A DNA stretch of 64,000 nucleotides from Mariprofundus aestuarium (lineage in GTDB: Bacteria > Pseudomonadota > Zetaproteobacteria > Mariprofundales > Mariprofundaceae): the NCBI RefSeq assembly GCF_002795805.1, contig NZ_CP018799.1, positions 985,001-1,049,000 on the forward strand, read 5' to 3'. Under the pieces are notes generated by a model. It searched no databases. It was not told where the DNA came from and saw only the letters and a list, made by a program, of their open reading frames with translations. The translations under genes and the position numbers were made by a program. Shown here piece by piece: positions 54,435-59,691 of the stretch (its first letter is position 1; every line of letters begins with the position of its first letter).

Positions 54435-55298
54435 CTATGGATGCGAAAGATCGATGATTTTGCGGATATCGTAATCCTTTGAACCACCGGCCTGTTTGAC
54501 CAGGTCGGCCATGATATCGTCCAATGTTGGGCGCTGGGTTTTATACAGAAGGCCTACCGGCTCCTTCTCCTTCTCTTTGAACTTGTAGACTAGTCGCATC
54601 GCCTTGCGAAGGTCAGTCACATCATGGCCTTCCGGAACTTCCTTGATGATGGACTTGAAATAGTCAGCGGTGTCCATCTTGTTGAAGCTGGGGCACTGGC
54701 TGAGGATATGGATATAGGCCATGCCCCTGTGTTCCAGCCCGCCCTTGATCAGTTCAGCGCACATCTTTGCATCGCCGGCAAAGGCCTGTCCCACGTAGGT
54801 GGCGCCGTAGGTGAGCATGTAGAGCAGTGGCCACATCGGTGCCTCAATGCCGCCATAGGGGGTGGTGTAGGCTTTCATCTCCCGCCTGGATGTGGGCGAA
54901 GCCTGTCCCTTGGTTAGCCCGTAGATGTGATTGTCCATCAGCACATAGGTGAGGTTAACGTTGGTGCGCCCCAGATGTGGCATGTGTCCGCCACCGATGG
55001 AGAAGCCATCACCATCGCCACCGGTAACCAGCACCTTCAGGTCAGGCCTAGCCAGTTGCAGGCCTGTGGCCACAGGGCCTGCGCGCCCGTGCAGGGTGTG
55101 CATTTTAAAGGCTTTGAGGAAGTAGGGCATGCGCGAGCTGCAGCCTATGCCTGAGATGTTTACGAGATTGGCGGGGTCTATCTGCAACTCGGCCAGTGCG
55201 CGGTAGACTGCGGCGAGTGCACCGTAGTTGCCACAGCCTGCGCACCAGACCGGATGTATGCCCGACTGATACTCTTTGGCTTTCATGAGTTCACTCAT
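54435..55298 (-). CDS. korB: 2-oxoacid:ferredoxin oxidoreductase, beta subunit
   Basis: The thiamine-diphosphate subunit of a CoA-dependent 2-oxoacid (likely 2-oxoglutarate) oxidoreductase. 287 residues: VWCAGCGNYGALAAV (first Cys cluster and TPP region), GIGCSSRMPYF, TGLQLARPDLKVLVTGGDGDGFSIGG (TPP-Mg motif), and the NVNLTYVLMDNHIYGLTKGQASPT segment. It overlaps korA by ATGA. It can run as carboxylation in reductive pathways or as oxidation in the Krebs cycle; direction not shown. Confidence 0.92.
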   Translation of the reverse strand: MSELMKAKEYQSGIHPVWCAGCGNYGALAAVYRALAELQIDPANLVNISGIGCSSRMPYFLKAFKMHTLHGRAGPVATGLQLARPDLKVLVTGGDGDGFSIGGGHMPHLGRTNVNLTYVLMDNHIYGLTKGQASPTSRREMKAYTTPYGGIEAPMWPLLYMLTYGATYVGQAFAGDAKMCAELIKGGLEHRGMAYIHILSQCPSFNKMDTADYFKSIIKEVPEGHDVTDLRKAMRLVYKFKEKEKEPVGLLYKTQRPTLDDIMADLVKQAGGSKDYDIRKIIDLSHP

Positions 55299-57010
55299 AA
55301 CTGTTCCCTGACTGCGGCCTCAATGTTGGCCGGTGTGAAGGGCATGCCTCCGCAAATGGTGTGTGAAAAGGGATTGAGAGAGGTTTCCGCACGGATAAGG
55401 TGAGCCAGCTGCCCCTGATGGTTGACCTCAACGACGAGGATCGTGTTGCACCTCTCTGCGAAGCTCTCGAACTGATCCACCTGCATCGGCCAGAGAAGTT
55501 TGGGGTAAAAGCCTTTTACGCTGATGCCTTCACCCCTGAGGCGGGCGATGGCTTCGCGCACCACGCCGATCGTGCTGCCCCATGCGATAATGCCGATATC
55601 GGCTTCTATTTTGACATCGCCATCAATTTCAACCGGGTGATAGTGATCAGGCAGCGATTTAAGCTTATCAAAACGTTTGTTGGACATCATCTCATGATTA
55701 TCCTGCGTAAAGGCAGGTCTGCCGTCTGCTTTATGCTCCAGCCCCGTAGCGATGTGGAGGGCACATGGGGTGCCGGGATCAGCCATCGGCGAGATAAAGT
55801 CTGCAGTCATCTCATAGCGCTGGTATTCACCCTCGCCACCCCAGCGTTTGCGCTGAACTACCTCTATGAGATCGGGATCGGGGGTAGGGATGGTCTGGCT
55901 GGAGAAGGCCAGTGAAGACTCGGATAACAGGATAACCGGGGATTGATAGTTCTCTGCAATATTCATCGCATCGACTGTCATGCTGATACAGTCAGCTACG
56001 TTTTCCACAGAGAGCACAATGCGGACGGCATCGCCGTGGCTACCGTAGATGGCGGCAAATAGATCTGATTGCTCATGTTTGGTGGGCAGCCCGGTAGATG
56101 GTCCACCGCGCTGAACGTCCACAACAACGGTCGGTGTTTCGCTCATAAAGGCAAACCCCAGCATTTCGCTCATCAGGGAGATGCCTGGGCCGCTGGTGGC
56201 AGTCATGGCCTTTTTGCCGGCGAATGATGCACCTATTACTTGCGAGATAGAGGCGATTTCATCCTCGGCCTGAATCAATGAGCCGCCCGTTTTGGGCAGG
56301 TGCATGGCCAGGTACTTGGCTATTTCGCTGGCCGGGGTGATGGGGTATGCTGAAAAGAAATCCAGGCCGCCAATCAGTGCGCCAAGGCCAATGGCCTCAT
56401 TGCCGGAGATCATAATAACATCTTTTGACTCCGTACCTTTGGATAGCTGCAGCTTGTCGATCTTTTCCATGCCTGTCGCAAGCTCTGCACCCTTATCAAA
56501 CGCTGCGAGATTGGAACGCAGTACCTTTTCCCCCTTGCTTCTGAACTTATCGCTCAGCACATCCTTTAAGGTCTTGGCGGGTATATTGAACAGTTCAGAG
56601 ATGGCACCGAGTGCCACCATGTTCTTGGCCTTTTTAAAGCCCAGACCTTTTGAGGCTGTTGTCATCGGGATAGGGAAGGCAAGTACGCCATCGGGAATAT
56701 CAGGGCTGAAGCTATCATCATAAACAAGGACGGTGCCGGGCACCAGGTGGCTTCTATTGAGGCCATAAGCCTCGCTGTTCAGCGCACAGAATATATCGAA
56801 GCTGTCACCCTGATTGTGCAGGGCTTTCATGCCGGCACGAACCTGATACATGGCATAACCACCACGCACCTCGGCAGGGAAGGTTTTGAATGTATATACC
56901 TCCAGACCAGAGCGGGCGCAGGCGGCAGCAATAAGATCGCCGCAGGAGATGATGCCTTCACCACCGTCGCCAGCAATCCGGAATATCATATCATGAGCGT
57001 GATCTGTCAC
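55295..57010 (-). CDS. korA: 2-oxoacid:ferredoxin oxidoreductase, fused gamma-alpha subunit
   Basis: 571 residues. The N-terminal gamma domain (GDGGEGIISCGDLIAAACARSG; FPAEVRGGYAMYQVR) is joined at about residue 195 to the alpha pyrimidine-binding domain (SGNEAIGLGALIGGLDFFSAYPITPASEI; FAGKKAMTATSGPGISLMSE). This is the KorA type seen in Mycobacterium and Hydrogenobacter. The ferredoxin partner is not in the window. It is the first gene, with KorB next. Confidence 0.92.
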   Translation of the reverse strand: MTDHAHDMIFRIAGDGGEGIISCGDLIAAACARSGLEVYTFKTFPAEVRGGYAMYQVRAGMKALHNQGDSFDIFCALNSEAYGLNRSHLVPGTVLVYDDSFSPDIPDGVLAFPIPMTTASKGLGFKKAKNMVALGAISELFNIPAKTLKDVLSDKFRSKGEKVLRSNLAAFDKGAELATGMEKIDKLQLSKGTESKDVIMISGNEAIGLGALIGGLDFFSAYPITPASEIAKYLAMHLPKTGGSLIQAEDEIASISQVIGASFAGKKAMTATSGPGISLMSEMLGFAFMSETPTVVVDVQRGGPSTGLPTKHEQSDLFAAIYGSHGDAVRIVLSVENVADCISMTVDAMNIAENYQSPVILLSESSLAFSSQTIPTPDPDLIEVVQRKRWGGEGEYQRYEMTADFISPMADPGTPCALHIATGLEHKADGRPAFTQDNHEMMSNKRFDKLKSLPDHYHPVEIDGDVKIEADIGIIAWGSTIGVVREAIARLRGEGISVKGFYPKLLWPMQVDQFESFAERCNTILVVEVNHQGQLAHLIRAETSLNPFSHTICGGMPFTPANIEAAVREQL

Positions 57011-57395
57011 GGTTCTGATCTCCTCTTAAGCTGCATATATCTATCATAGAGTATGCAACTTGAATAGGCTACTTCAGCAAGAGGATTAGATCTGTTTTCT
57101 CCATGAGAAGCAGCAAAGTCCTTTTCGTTTTCCAGCGATTCAGCCATCGGTCTATAATATTGTGACAGTGATGTGACTATTCATAAATAGCTCACAATGG
57201 CCTCCTGACTGCGGTCTGTTTTTCATATAGATCAGCTGTTTTGTAGACATACTGAATCAGTACCACTGCACTTTCTGAATTGCCTGATATAATAGTAGGA
57301 TTATGTGATGCTTGACATATAACCATATTATAATATCTTAACGCCATAATTTGAATTCGATCTCTAATGACGTTTAGGAAACAGGAGGAGAAAAC
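57011..57395. promoter_or_regulatory. 385-bp AT-rich divergent region between korA and the SQR-like gene
   Basis: Gene-free. It holds the korA promoter region on one strand and the SQR-like promoter on the other. On the plus strand TTGACA (57312-57317) with a 16-bp spacer and TATCTT (57334-57339) is the best candidate. TATAAT-like runs also occur at 57285-57291 and 57329. No clear operator palindrome, ORF or RNA was found. Confidence 0.45.
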
Positions 57396-58853
57396 ATGTC
57401 GCGAATCGTGATTTTAGGTGCAGGCATATCTGGCCATACTGCCGCCAGGTATCTTGATAAATGGATAGGCAAGAAACATGAAATTATCGTGGTTTCTCCT
57501 AATGCCAAATGGAACTGGATTCCATCCAATATCTGGGTAGGCGTGGGTCAGATGACTGAAGAGGATGTGACCTTCGATCTGGCTGAGGTCTATAAAAAGA
57601 CCAATGTCGATTTCCGTCAGGCTAAAGCGATTTCTATCAATCCAGAGGGCAGTGCCGATAGTGAGAAACCATTTATCACAGTTGAGTACACCCTTGAGAG
57701 CAGAGCCGGTGAGCAGGAAAATATTGAATATGATTACATGATCAATGCCACCGGTCCTAAACTGAACTTTGGCGCTACCGAAGGATTAGGCCCGGATCAT
57801 GGCCATACTGTATCGGTCTGTACTGCTGGCCATGCACTCGAGGCCAATGAGAAGCTGCAGGCGACCATCGATAGAATGAAAGCAGGCGAGCACTGCACTG
57901 TAGTGATCGGAACCGGTCACGGCATGTGCACCTGTCAGGGTGCTGCCTTTGAGTATATCTATAATGTTGATCATGTTCTGCGTGAAGCGGGCGTGCGTGA
58001 TATGGCCCGTATTGTCTGGATCAGTAATGAGTATGAGCTGGGCGACTTCGGCATGGGCGGCGTACATATCAAACGTGGCGGTTACGTCACCAACGGTAAG
58101 ACCTTCGCTGAATCACTGATGGTTGAGCGTGGCATCGAGTGGATTACCCGTGCACATGTGAAGAAGGTTGAAGCGGGCCTGATTCATTACGAGACGCTCG
58201 ATGGTGAATTTCATGAGCAGGAGTTTGATTTCTCCATGCTGATTCCACCGTTTGCCGGTGTTGGTCTGAAGGCCTTTGACAAAGCCGGTGAAGATATTAC
58301 AGCCAATATCTTTGCACCTAATGGCTTCCTGAAAGTTGATGCCGACTACACACCGCGCCCATTTGCGGAGTGGAGTGCCAAGGATTGGCCAAGGAACTAC
58401 CAGAACCCAACCTACAAAAACATGTTTGCAGTCGGTATCGCCTTTGCACCACCGCATCCGATCAGCAAACCGATGCAGAGTCCTAATGGCACAGCCATCA
58501 ACCCGACACCACCACGGACCGGCATGCCTTCAGCAACCATGGCTAAAGCTGTGGCTCAGAGCATCCGCGATATGGTTAATGGCGCTAAAGAGCCAACCCA
58601 TTCTGCGTCAATGGCAGAGATGGGTGCGGCATGTGTCGCCTCTACCGGTTCGCATGTGTTTAAAGGAACAGCTGCAACAATGACTGTGTTCCCGGTTGTA
58701 CCGGACTTTGAGAAGTATCCGGATACCGGTCGTGATATTGAGCTTACTACCGGTGAGATCGGTTTGGCAGGTCACTGGATGAAGTATATTCTACATCACA
58801 CCTTCATCTACCAGGCTAAACTGAAACCGGGCTGGTCAGTGCTACCGGATTAA
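57396..58853 (+). CDS. Sulfide:quinone oxidoreductase-like flavoprotein
   Basis: A 485-residue FAD protein of the SQR/FCSD superfamily. FAD motif VILGAGISGHTAARYLDK at the start; FMN-contact region NWIPSNIWVG; ATGPKLNFGA; the second dinucleotide motif region GTGHGMCTCQG. Cys142 (SVCTAGHA), Cys178/Cys180 (GMCTCQG) and Cys413 (MGAACVAST) are arranged like the three redox Cys of SQRs. The C-terminus (LAGHWMKYILHHTFIYQAKL) is amphipathic, suiting membrane attachment. SQRs reduce quinone with sulfide; other thiol or sulfur donors are possible. GGAGGAG precedes the ATG. Confidence 0.82.
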   Translation: MSRIVILGAGISGHTAARYLDKWIGKKHEIIVVSPNAKWNWIPSNIWVGVGQMTEEDVTFDLAEVYKKTNVDFRQAKAISINPEGSADSEKPFITVEYTLESRAGEQENIEYDYMINATGPKLNFGATEGLGPDHGHTVSVCTAGHALEANEKLQATIDRMKAGEHCTVVIGTGHGMCTCQGAAFEYIYNVDHVLREAGVRDMARIVWISNEYELGDFGMGGVHIKRGGYVTNGKTFAESLMVERGIEWITRAHVKKVEAGLIHYETLDGEFHEQEFDFSMLIPPFAGVGLKAFDKAGEDITANIFAPNGFLKVDADYTPRPFAEWSAKDWPRNYQNPTYKNMFAVGIAFAPPHPISKPMQSPNGTAINPTPPRTGMPSATMAKAVAQSIRDMVNGAKEPTHSASMAEMGAACVASTGSHVFKGTAATMTVFPVVPDFEKYPDTGRDIELTTGEIGLAGHWMKYILHHTFIYQAKLKPGWSVLPD

Positions 58854-58888
58854 TAGAATAGATATTTATAATTATTGAGGAGCATGAC

Positions 58889-59053
58889 ATGGCAAATAAA
58901 GTAACCAATAAGGAGCCTTATCAGCAGGCTTATTATCCACCAGCCCCGACCGGGTTTACCAAAAGTATGCGGACATCAGTCATCTGGCAGTTTTTCCGCT
59001 TTATCGTCATCAATCTGAAGATGCTTAAATTGATGTCGAAATCGCACCATTAA
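58889..59053 (+). CDS. 54-residue protein following the SQR-like gene
   Basis: Begins MANKVTNKEPYQQAYYPPAP and ends SKSHH. The N-terminal third is polar and Pro/Tyr-rich. The rest (TSVIWQFFRFIVINLKMLKL) is an amphipathic or membrane-associating helix with Lys residues after it. GAGGAG lies seven bases upstream of the ATG, and a strong terminator follows the stop, so it is expressed with the SQR-like gene from 36 bp before it. I do not recognise a family. A small partner anchoring or stabilising the flavoprotein on the membrane is a guess. Confidence 0.7.
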   Translation: MANKVTNKEPYQQAYYPPAPTGFTKSMRTSVIWQFFRFIVINLKMLKLMSKSHH

Positions 59054-59082: not shown

Positions 59083-59120
59083 AAAGCCCTCTGCGCAAGC
59101 AGGGGGCTTTTTCTTTTTTT
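59083..59120 (+). terminator. Rho-independent terminator of the SQR-like operon
   Basis: A 12-bp stem (59083-59094 with 59099-59110) capped by GCAA, with one G-U pair, followed by TTC and a T7 run. It is the best terminator in the window. A smaller palindrome, TAATACCC/GGGTATTA (59051-59068), overlaps the stop codon before it. Confidence 0.9.
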
Positions 59121-59265: not shown

Positions 59266-59691
59266 ATGAATGAGTTGGCACCTAACAAGATATCCTGCCT
59301 TTGCGGGGTAGTAACCCTCACTACCAAACCAATCAAACAACAGTTTACAGCATGTCATTGTGGCATGTGTAGGCGATGGGGTGGCGGCCCTTTGTTGGCA
59401 GTTGATTGTGGAACAGAAGTTCAGTTTGATGGGGATGAATTTGTAGCGATATATAACTCGTCTGAATGGGCAGAACGTGGGTTTTGCAAGAAGTGTGGAA
59501 CACACTTGTTTTATCGTTTAAAGGAGTCTCGAGAGTATCAAATTCCTGTTGGACTATTTGAGGAAGTGGTTACCCTGAAGTTTGGACTTCAAGTGTTTAT
59601 CGATAGAAAACCCGATTATTACACCTTTGCCGATATAACCCAGAAGATGAGTGAGGAAGAGATATACGAGATGTATAAACCTAAGAGTTAG
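59266..59691 (+). CDS. GFA/CENP-V-family zinc protein
   Basis: A 141-residue protein of the glutathione-dependent formaldehyde-activating fold. Zinc Cys in CLCG (near 11-14) and CHCGMCRRW (near 32-40), and CKKCGTHLFY around 77-86. The base composition is more AT-rich than its neighbours and codon choice differs, with AGG and CGA more frequent, which suggests recent transfer. AAAAGGAGG precedes the ATG. Its stop overlaps the stop of a permease relic on the other strand. The substrate is unknown. Confidence 0.82.
   Translation: MNELAPNKISCLCGVVTLTTKPIKQQFTACHCGMCRRWGGGPLLAVDCGTEVQFDGDEFVAIYNSSEWAERGFCKKCGTHLFYRLKESREYQIPVGLFEEVVTLKFGLQVFIDRKPDYYTFADITQKMSEEEIYEMYKPKS

Follow-up and report, generated by a model that had tools for sequence, protein, structure and literature searches.

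What is the 54-codon open reading frame that follows a gene for an SQR-like flavoprotein in this DNA, and what might its product do for the enzyme encoded beside it? The frame occupies positions 58889-59053 on the plus strand of the window, by which is meant the whole 64,000-nucleotide stretch analyzed here, part of a 2.54-Mb single-contig genome. It opens with ATG, and a Shine-Dalgarno sequence, GAGGAG, lies 6 nt ahead of the start at 58877-58882 on the same strand. The flavoprotein gene (57396-58853, plus strand) encodes a 485-residue SQR-family protein, probably of type IV (SqrD), with a Pyr_redox_2 domain, and its stop is separated from the small gene by 35 nt. Hairpin inspection of the window reveals no terminator between the two genes, and an intrinsic terminator with a 12-bp stem, a GCAA loop and a T-rich tail (59083-59110, plus strand) closes the two-gene unit. 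A sequence 5' of the SQR gene, TTGACA-16-TATCTT at 57312-57339 on the plus strand, is a possible sigma-70-type promoter, proposed from its consensus match only. The unit is preceded directly by divergent, minus-strand genes for the alpha and beta subunits of a 2-oxoacid:acceptor oxidoreductase of the OAFO family (54435-57010), and a 141-residue protein of the GFA family (glutathione-dependent formaldehyde-activating type) is encoded on the same strand 3' of the terminator (59266-59691).

The small protein, MANKVTNKEPYQQAYYPPAPTGFTKSMRTSVIWQFFRFIVINLKMLKLMSKSHH, consists of a Pro/Tyr-rich head at residues 7-21, PYQQAYYPPAPT, and a C-terminal half (residues about 22-51) that is predicted to form a kinked, basic, amphipathic helix. 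Its net charge is +7, its amphipathic moment is 0.44, and its hydrophobic core spans ~19 residues; the 19-residue Kyte-Doolittle mean is 1.33 for the window protein, 1.22 in Thiocapsa, 1.49 in Marivivens and 2.06 in Sulfurovum. The start codon, the upstream GAGGAG, the length, the capped terminator, the Pro/Tyr head and the amphipathic helix were all listed in a preliminary description of the locus and are confirmed here. That description also recognized no family for the 54-mer, and searches agree: no family is found in Pfam, NCBIfam or PHROGs at E<=1, and no relative is present among PDB sequences, where the best match (E 1.1) is due to chance.

So short a frame could be a chance or non-coding one, and shortness is the sole point in favor of that explanation, which is extremely improbable. 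Pairwise dN/dS among seven Mariprofundus-type sequences ranges between 0.06 and 0.23, and the codon-position entropies over 85 homologues are 0.61, 0.45 and 1.38 bits, placing the variation at the third position. The homologues are spread over several phyla, agree in where they begin and end and in their length (median 53 aa), and carry a ribosome binding site-like motif within 20 nt 5' of the start in 71 of 79 homologous loci. The small frame is a real protein-coding gene under purifying selection, and the codon-level constraint that had been named as a check on relatives is present. The suggestion that gene callers would miss it is not borne out: three plasmid records with annotation were examined, and PGAP calls the counterpart in each; there it is labeled 'hypothetical protein', so the small gene is unnamed rather than always missed.

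The neighbor had been described as SQR-like, and it is an SQR-family member, closest to type I by profile and structure comparison. Its profile match is to 3hyv (E 4e-42), and its model adopts the SQR fold, aligning with the SQRs of A. ferrooxidans (Z 39.2, rmsd 2.0, 393 residues aligned) and A. aeolicus (Z 37.3, rmsd 2.2, 397 aligned), and with the human type II (Z 31) and A. ambivalens type V (Z 30) enzymes. Its three redox cysteines, Cys142, Cys180 and Cys413, align with Cys124/156/347 of A. aeolicus SQR, and C142, C178, C180 and C413 are invariant in a 75-row alignment. An Ala precedes the third cysteine (A412 in the window; 79/79 loci), a feature described as the type IV exception (PMC9666304). 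SQR types I and IV make up one clade (PMC4584964), and type IV is reported from Thiococcus pfennigii (PMC3368242), whose genome holds a window-type SQR gene (L127). The Ala, the type I/IV kinship and the T. pfennigii occurrence make it likely, judged by published descriptions of the class, that the flavoprotein is a type IV SQR (SqrD). In a tree, window-type SQRs form a clade separate from the ~430-aa type I-like paralogues (support 0.97). The resemblance to type IV, represented by CT0117 of Chlorobaculum tepidum and Alvin_2145 of Allochromatium vinosum, lies in the three SQR cysteines, the Ala before the third and the occurrence in Chromatiaceae and Campylobacterota; CT0117 and Alvin_2145 are likened by description only, and the closest solved structures are of type I. 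A type VI SqrF identity, with the small protein equal to Alvin_1196, was considered and dropped. Type VI SqrF has a short chain whose third cysteine is at position 332 and which finishes with a single short helix around 366-369 (TrSqrF numbering, PMC9666304), and the chain length (485 aa) and cysteine position (C413) of the window enzyme exclude it. The literature presents SQRs as enzymes of one subunit (PMC10892978), and a small partner gene for type IV was not found in the SQR papers searched.

The small gene is strictly coupled to the SQR gene. Among 100 relatives searched, the source genome included, 17 carry the small gene; the same 17 carry the orthologous SQR gene, and in those genomes the two adjoin. 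When 80 loci were located in species genomes by the flavoprotein query alone, the small gene lay directly downstream on the same strand in 79, at a distance of 16-202 nt (median 31), and at the 80th the contig ends ~170 nt past the flavoprotein gene. These loci span Zetaproteobacteria, Gallionellaceae, Rhodocyclus, Thiobacillus, Thiothrix, Polynucleobacter and many Chromatiaceae, with Mariprofundus strains the closest named relatives. Both genes occur in 24 of 398 genomes of a phylum sample, none of which has a strong match to one alone (24/24 coupled), in 30 of 100 Gallionellaceae genomes (30/30) and in 19 of 57 genomes of a Chromatiales family sample (19/19); further loci carry the small gene in 30 of 30 cases. 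All of these counts refer to genomes rather than independent events, and the samples overlap slightly. The coupling anticipated in the preliminary description is thus borne out, with relatives of the 54-mer sitting beside SQR genes. The ~430-aa SQR paralogues in the same genomes lack the small gene. Weak small-protein matches in five genomes (G014, G042, G354, G416 and G470) were rejected as chance, being partial or broken and lying in genomes with no close SQR homologue, and searches of viral contigs returned no relatives of the SQR enzyme.

Gene neighborhoods outside the pair vary almost genus by genus, and comparison of the loci identified no third gene conserved beside it; with such varied surroundings, it is the pair itself that is kept. 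A terminator stands between the two genes in none of the 79 loci and just 3' of the small gene in 25 of them, compared with 1 of 79 in shuffled sequence. SQR and small-protein distances correlate (r=0.69, null maximum 0.22), as any two linked genes of shared descent would be expected to do. Several individual loci have features of their own. Immediately 5' of the pair, some contain a persulfide dioxygenase-like MBL-fold gene or cydAB-like quinol oxidase genes (L072, L088, L091, L094; L056, L058, L078, L086), assignments made by reading the sequences rather than by family search. Two Gallionellaceae loci (G406 C12, 40399-41478; G443 C1, 1126726-1127526) have a type I-like SQR gene directly 3' of the small gene, an arrangement that places two SQR types in tandem. 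In G056 (C21, 4532-6191), the SQR orthologue is disrupted, with both a frame change and an in-frame TGA, and the small gene downstream is intact.

Orthologues of the small gene are found in Zeta-, Beta-, Gamma- and Alphaproteobacteria and in Campylobacterota. A Sulfurovum mangrovi plasmid (Campylobacterota) and a Marivivens plasmid (Alphaproteobacteria) encode SQRs 66% and 63% identical to that of the window, each followed by a small protein of 52-53 aa that retains the core PT.F..F(L/M)R....(W/F)Q..RF..(I/L)N.K. The S. mangrovi plasmid also carries a pyruvate flavodoxin oxidoreductase subunit gene ~2.6 kb 5' of its SQR gene. In G608, from the Chromatiales sample, the SQR is only 42% identical to that of the window and has Met in place of the Ala before the third cysteine; the 38-aa frame downstream contains the helix core alone, MNYTLTHTVKRLNGNVFWQFWRFIILSFKFMKLTRQGT. 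This marks the helix as the essential part and the head, which differs in Sulfurovum and Marivivens and is missing from G608, as more recent or clade-specific. One apparent natural fusion in a Chromatiales genome, in which an SQR truncated near residue 241 runs in frame into the C-terminal 29 residues of a small protein (L204; G590 C8, minus strand, 1343-2227), was rejected as a functional fusion. Since an intact near-copy of the SQR exists elsewhere in the same genome (L205, G590 C1, where the CTC motif reads ATC), the truncated gene looks like the deletion product of a degenerate duplicate.

The C-terminus of the enzyme offers a possible role for such a helix. Two C-terminal amphipathic helices are present in most SQRs (PMC9666304); in type I-like SQRs the first has the pattern WVH.AK..FEKYF..K and the second lies around EP.YEK..L.M.G. 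The window-type SQR has one C-terminal helix with the invariant end ...GW..(L/M)PD, and in all 79 loci its chain stops 25 residues after that helix begins, compared with 39 or more residues in type I-like SQRs. Window-type SQRs are thus without the second C-terminal amphipathic helix of their type I-like relatives. Searched on its own, the 97-residue C-terminal part of the enzyme matches no PDB sequence. A tyrosine of the second type I-like helix, at +55 from the third cysteine, corresponds to Tyr411 of A. ferrooxidans SQR, which lies close to where the quinone channel opens (PMC9666304). As PMC9666304 cites Lencina 2020, removal of one or two helices from C. maquilingensis SQR leaves the enzyme soluble and inactive, so a helix of this kind does have work to do. 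Type VI SqrF without its C-terminal helix retains activity and membrane binding (PMC9666304), so C-terminal helices need not be decisive.

Conservation in the small protein follows a helical period (p 0.006 for residues 27-50; 0.002 for residues 30-50), and the directions of the conserved and hydrophobic sides differ by 114-139 degrees, though taken by itself the hydrophobic moment falls short of significance. On one side of the helix W33, Q34, R37, F38 and K44 form an invariant face; the face opposite is hydrophobic and variable. N42 is also invariant, and the head, PYQQAYYPP.PT, is nearly so in most members. What it shares with the second helix of type I SQR (A. ferrooxidans) is a basic, amphipathic character and a place, presumed for the small protein, on the membrane side of the enzyme; type I carries this helix in cis, whereas here the SQR stops short and a helix comes from a gene of its own. 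No claim is made that the two are homologous in sequence.

The SQR and small frames are in register in several genomes, which made it possible to build single-chain models from aligned natural DNA with the stop read through. With L051 as the first sequence, the enzyme folds well and the small protein forms helices at 22-29 and 31-51, at a confidence (pLDDT 55-62) too low for placement. A second model, headed by L111 and built with a 28-residue linker and additional small-protein rows, gives pLDDT 70-76 for the small-protein helix and 78-90 for the last enzyme helix, and is not decisive. Some chain alignments of this model with A. ferrooxidans, A. aeolicus and human SQR reach the end of the small protein, overlaying model residues 563-566 on SQR chain residues 415-427 or 444-446. 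The same overlay arises with unrelated flavoproteins, the CoA-disulfide reductases, and the linker biases placement; the overlay is therefore only weakly consistent with a second helix supplied by the small protein.

The preliminary description regarded the peptide as an anchor, stabilizer or quinone-site partner for the flavoprotein, and no better reading is available, with binding and function inferred. The absence of the second C-terminal helix from the SQR clade concerned allows it to be made more precise. There is good reason to regard the small protein as a dedicated partner or subunit of this SQR, and it is somewhat favored, with less assurance, that the role of this partner, which would dock on the enzyme, is exercised at its membrane side. 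A tentative mechanism can be outlined. The SQR and the small subunit would be made from one two-gene transcript, and the basic helix would most likely sit in the surface of the membrane, next to the only C-terminal helix of the SQR, its variable hydrophobic face toward the lipid and its invariant face toward the enzyme. There it would replace the second amphipathic helix that type I SQRs hold in cis; it would contribute to anchoring this monotopic enzyme and help define the entrance of the quinone channel. This in-trans substitution, with its effect on quinone reduction, is conceivable rather than probable. The broader proposal that type IV SQRs are split two-subunit enzymes, whose universal micro-subunit supplies in trans both the second helix in the membrane and a portion of the quinone gate, is slightly more speculative still. 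An anchor role does not account for the Pro/Tyr head, which is altered or missing in the most divergent homologues. Anchors encoded downstream have been proposed before, for a different SQR type: Alvin_1196/Alvin_1197, encoded directly downstream of A. vinosum sqrF, are suggested to attach SqrF to the membrane (PMC10892978). Those genes adjoin a type VI enzyme, not the 485-aa clade, and are likened to the 54-mer by gene position only.

Other roles for a strictly coupled small protein can be weighed against this one. It might be a simple membrane tether that adds a basic membrane-binding surface or a single crossing and makes no contact with the quinone site. The charge, moment and hydrophobic core noted above suit a tether, and the Sulfurovum hydrophobicity mean approaches that of a transmembrane helix; the value for the window protein is only 1.33, and a tether alone requires neither the invariant W33, Q34, R37, F38, N42 and K44 nor the nearly invariant PYQQAYYPP head, which makes this unlikely. 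An assembly or stability factor, aiding folding, FAD insertion or oligomer formation and perhaps leaving afterwards, is less likely again. The one-to-one operon partnership would also suit a dedicated chaperone, and translation after the enzyme fits a subunit equally; the protein is very short, has no predicted folded domain, and concentrates its conservation on a membrane-type helix face. The least probable of the three is an adaptor to a sulfur acceptor, persulfide dioxygenase or quinol oxidase, with the Pro/Tyr head as docking motif. Near-invariance of the head in most members and the persulfide dioxygenase-like or cydAB genes upstream in some loci speak for it, but the pair has no conserved third neighbor, and the SQR persists where the head is changed or lost.

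SQRs connect sulfide oxidation with the quinone pool in phototrophs, sulfur oxidizers and iron oxidizers, and have been treated as one-protein enzymes. A co-inherited micro-protein suggests that a widespread SQR clade may have a hidden subunit, and what is new here is probably an unrecognized subunit of a known enzyme class. Such a subunit would affect the expression, purification, modeling and annotation of the enzyme, and the W-Q-x-x-R-F helix family is a candidate addition to annotation libraries. If the split-enzyme reading is true, experiments on the flavoprotein by itself, whether heterologous or biochemical, have been done with an enzyme that lacks a part. The pair also provides a testable case of how monotopic membrane enzymes may gain or split off their anchoring helices.
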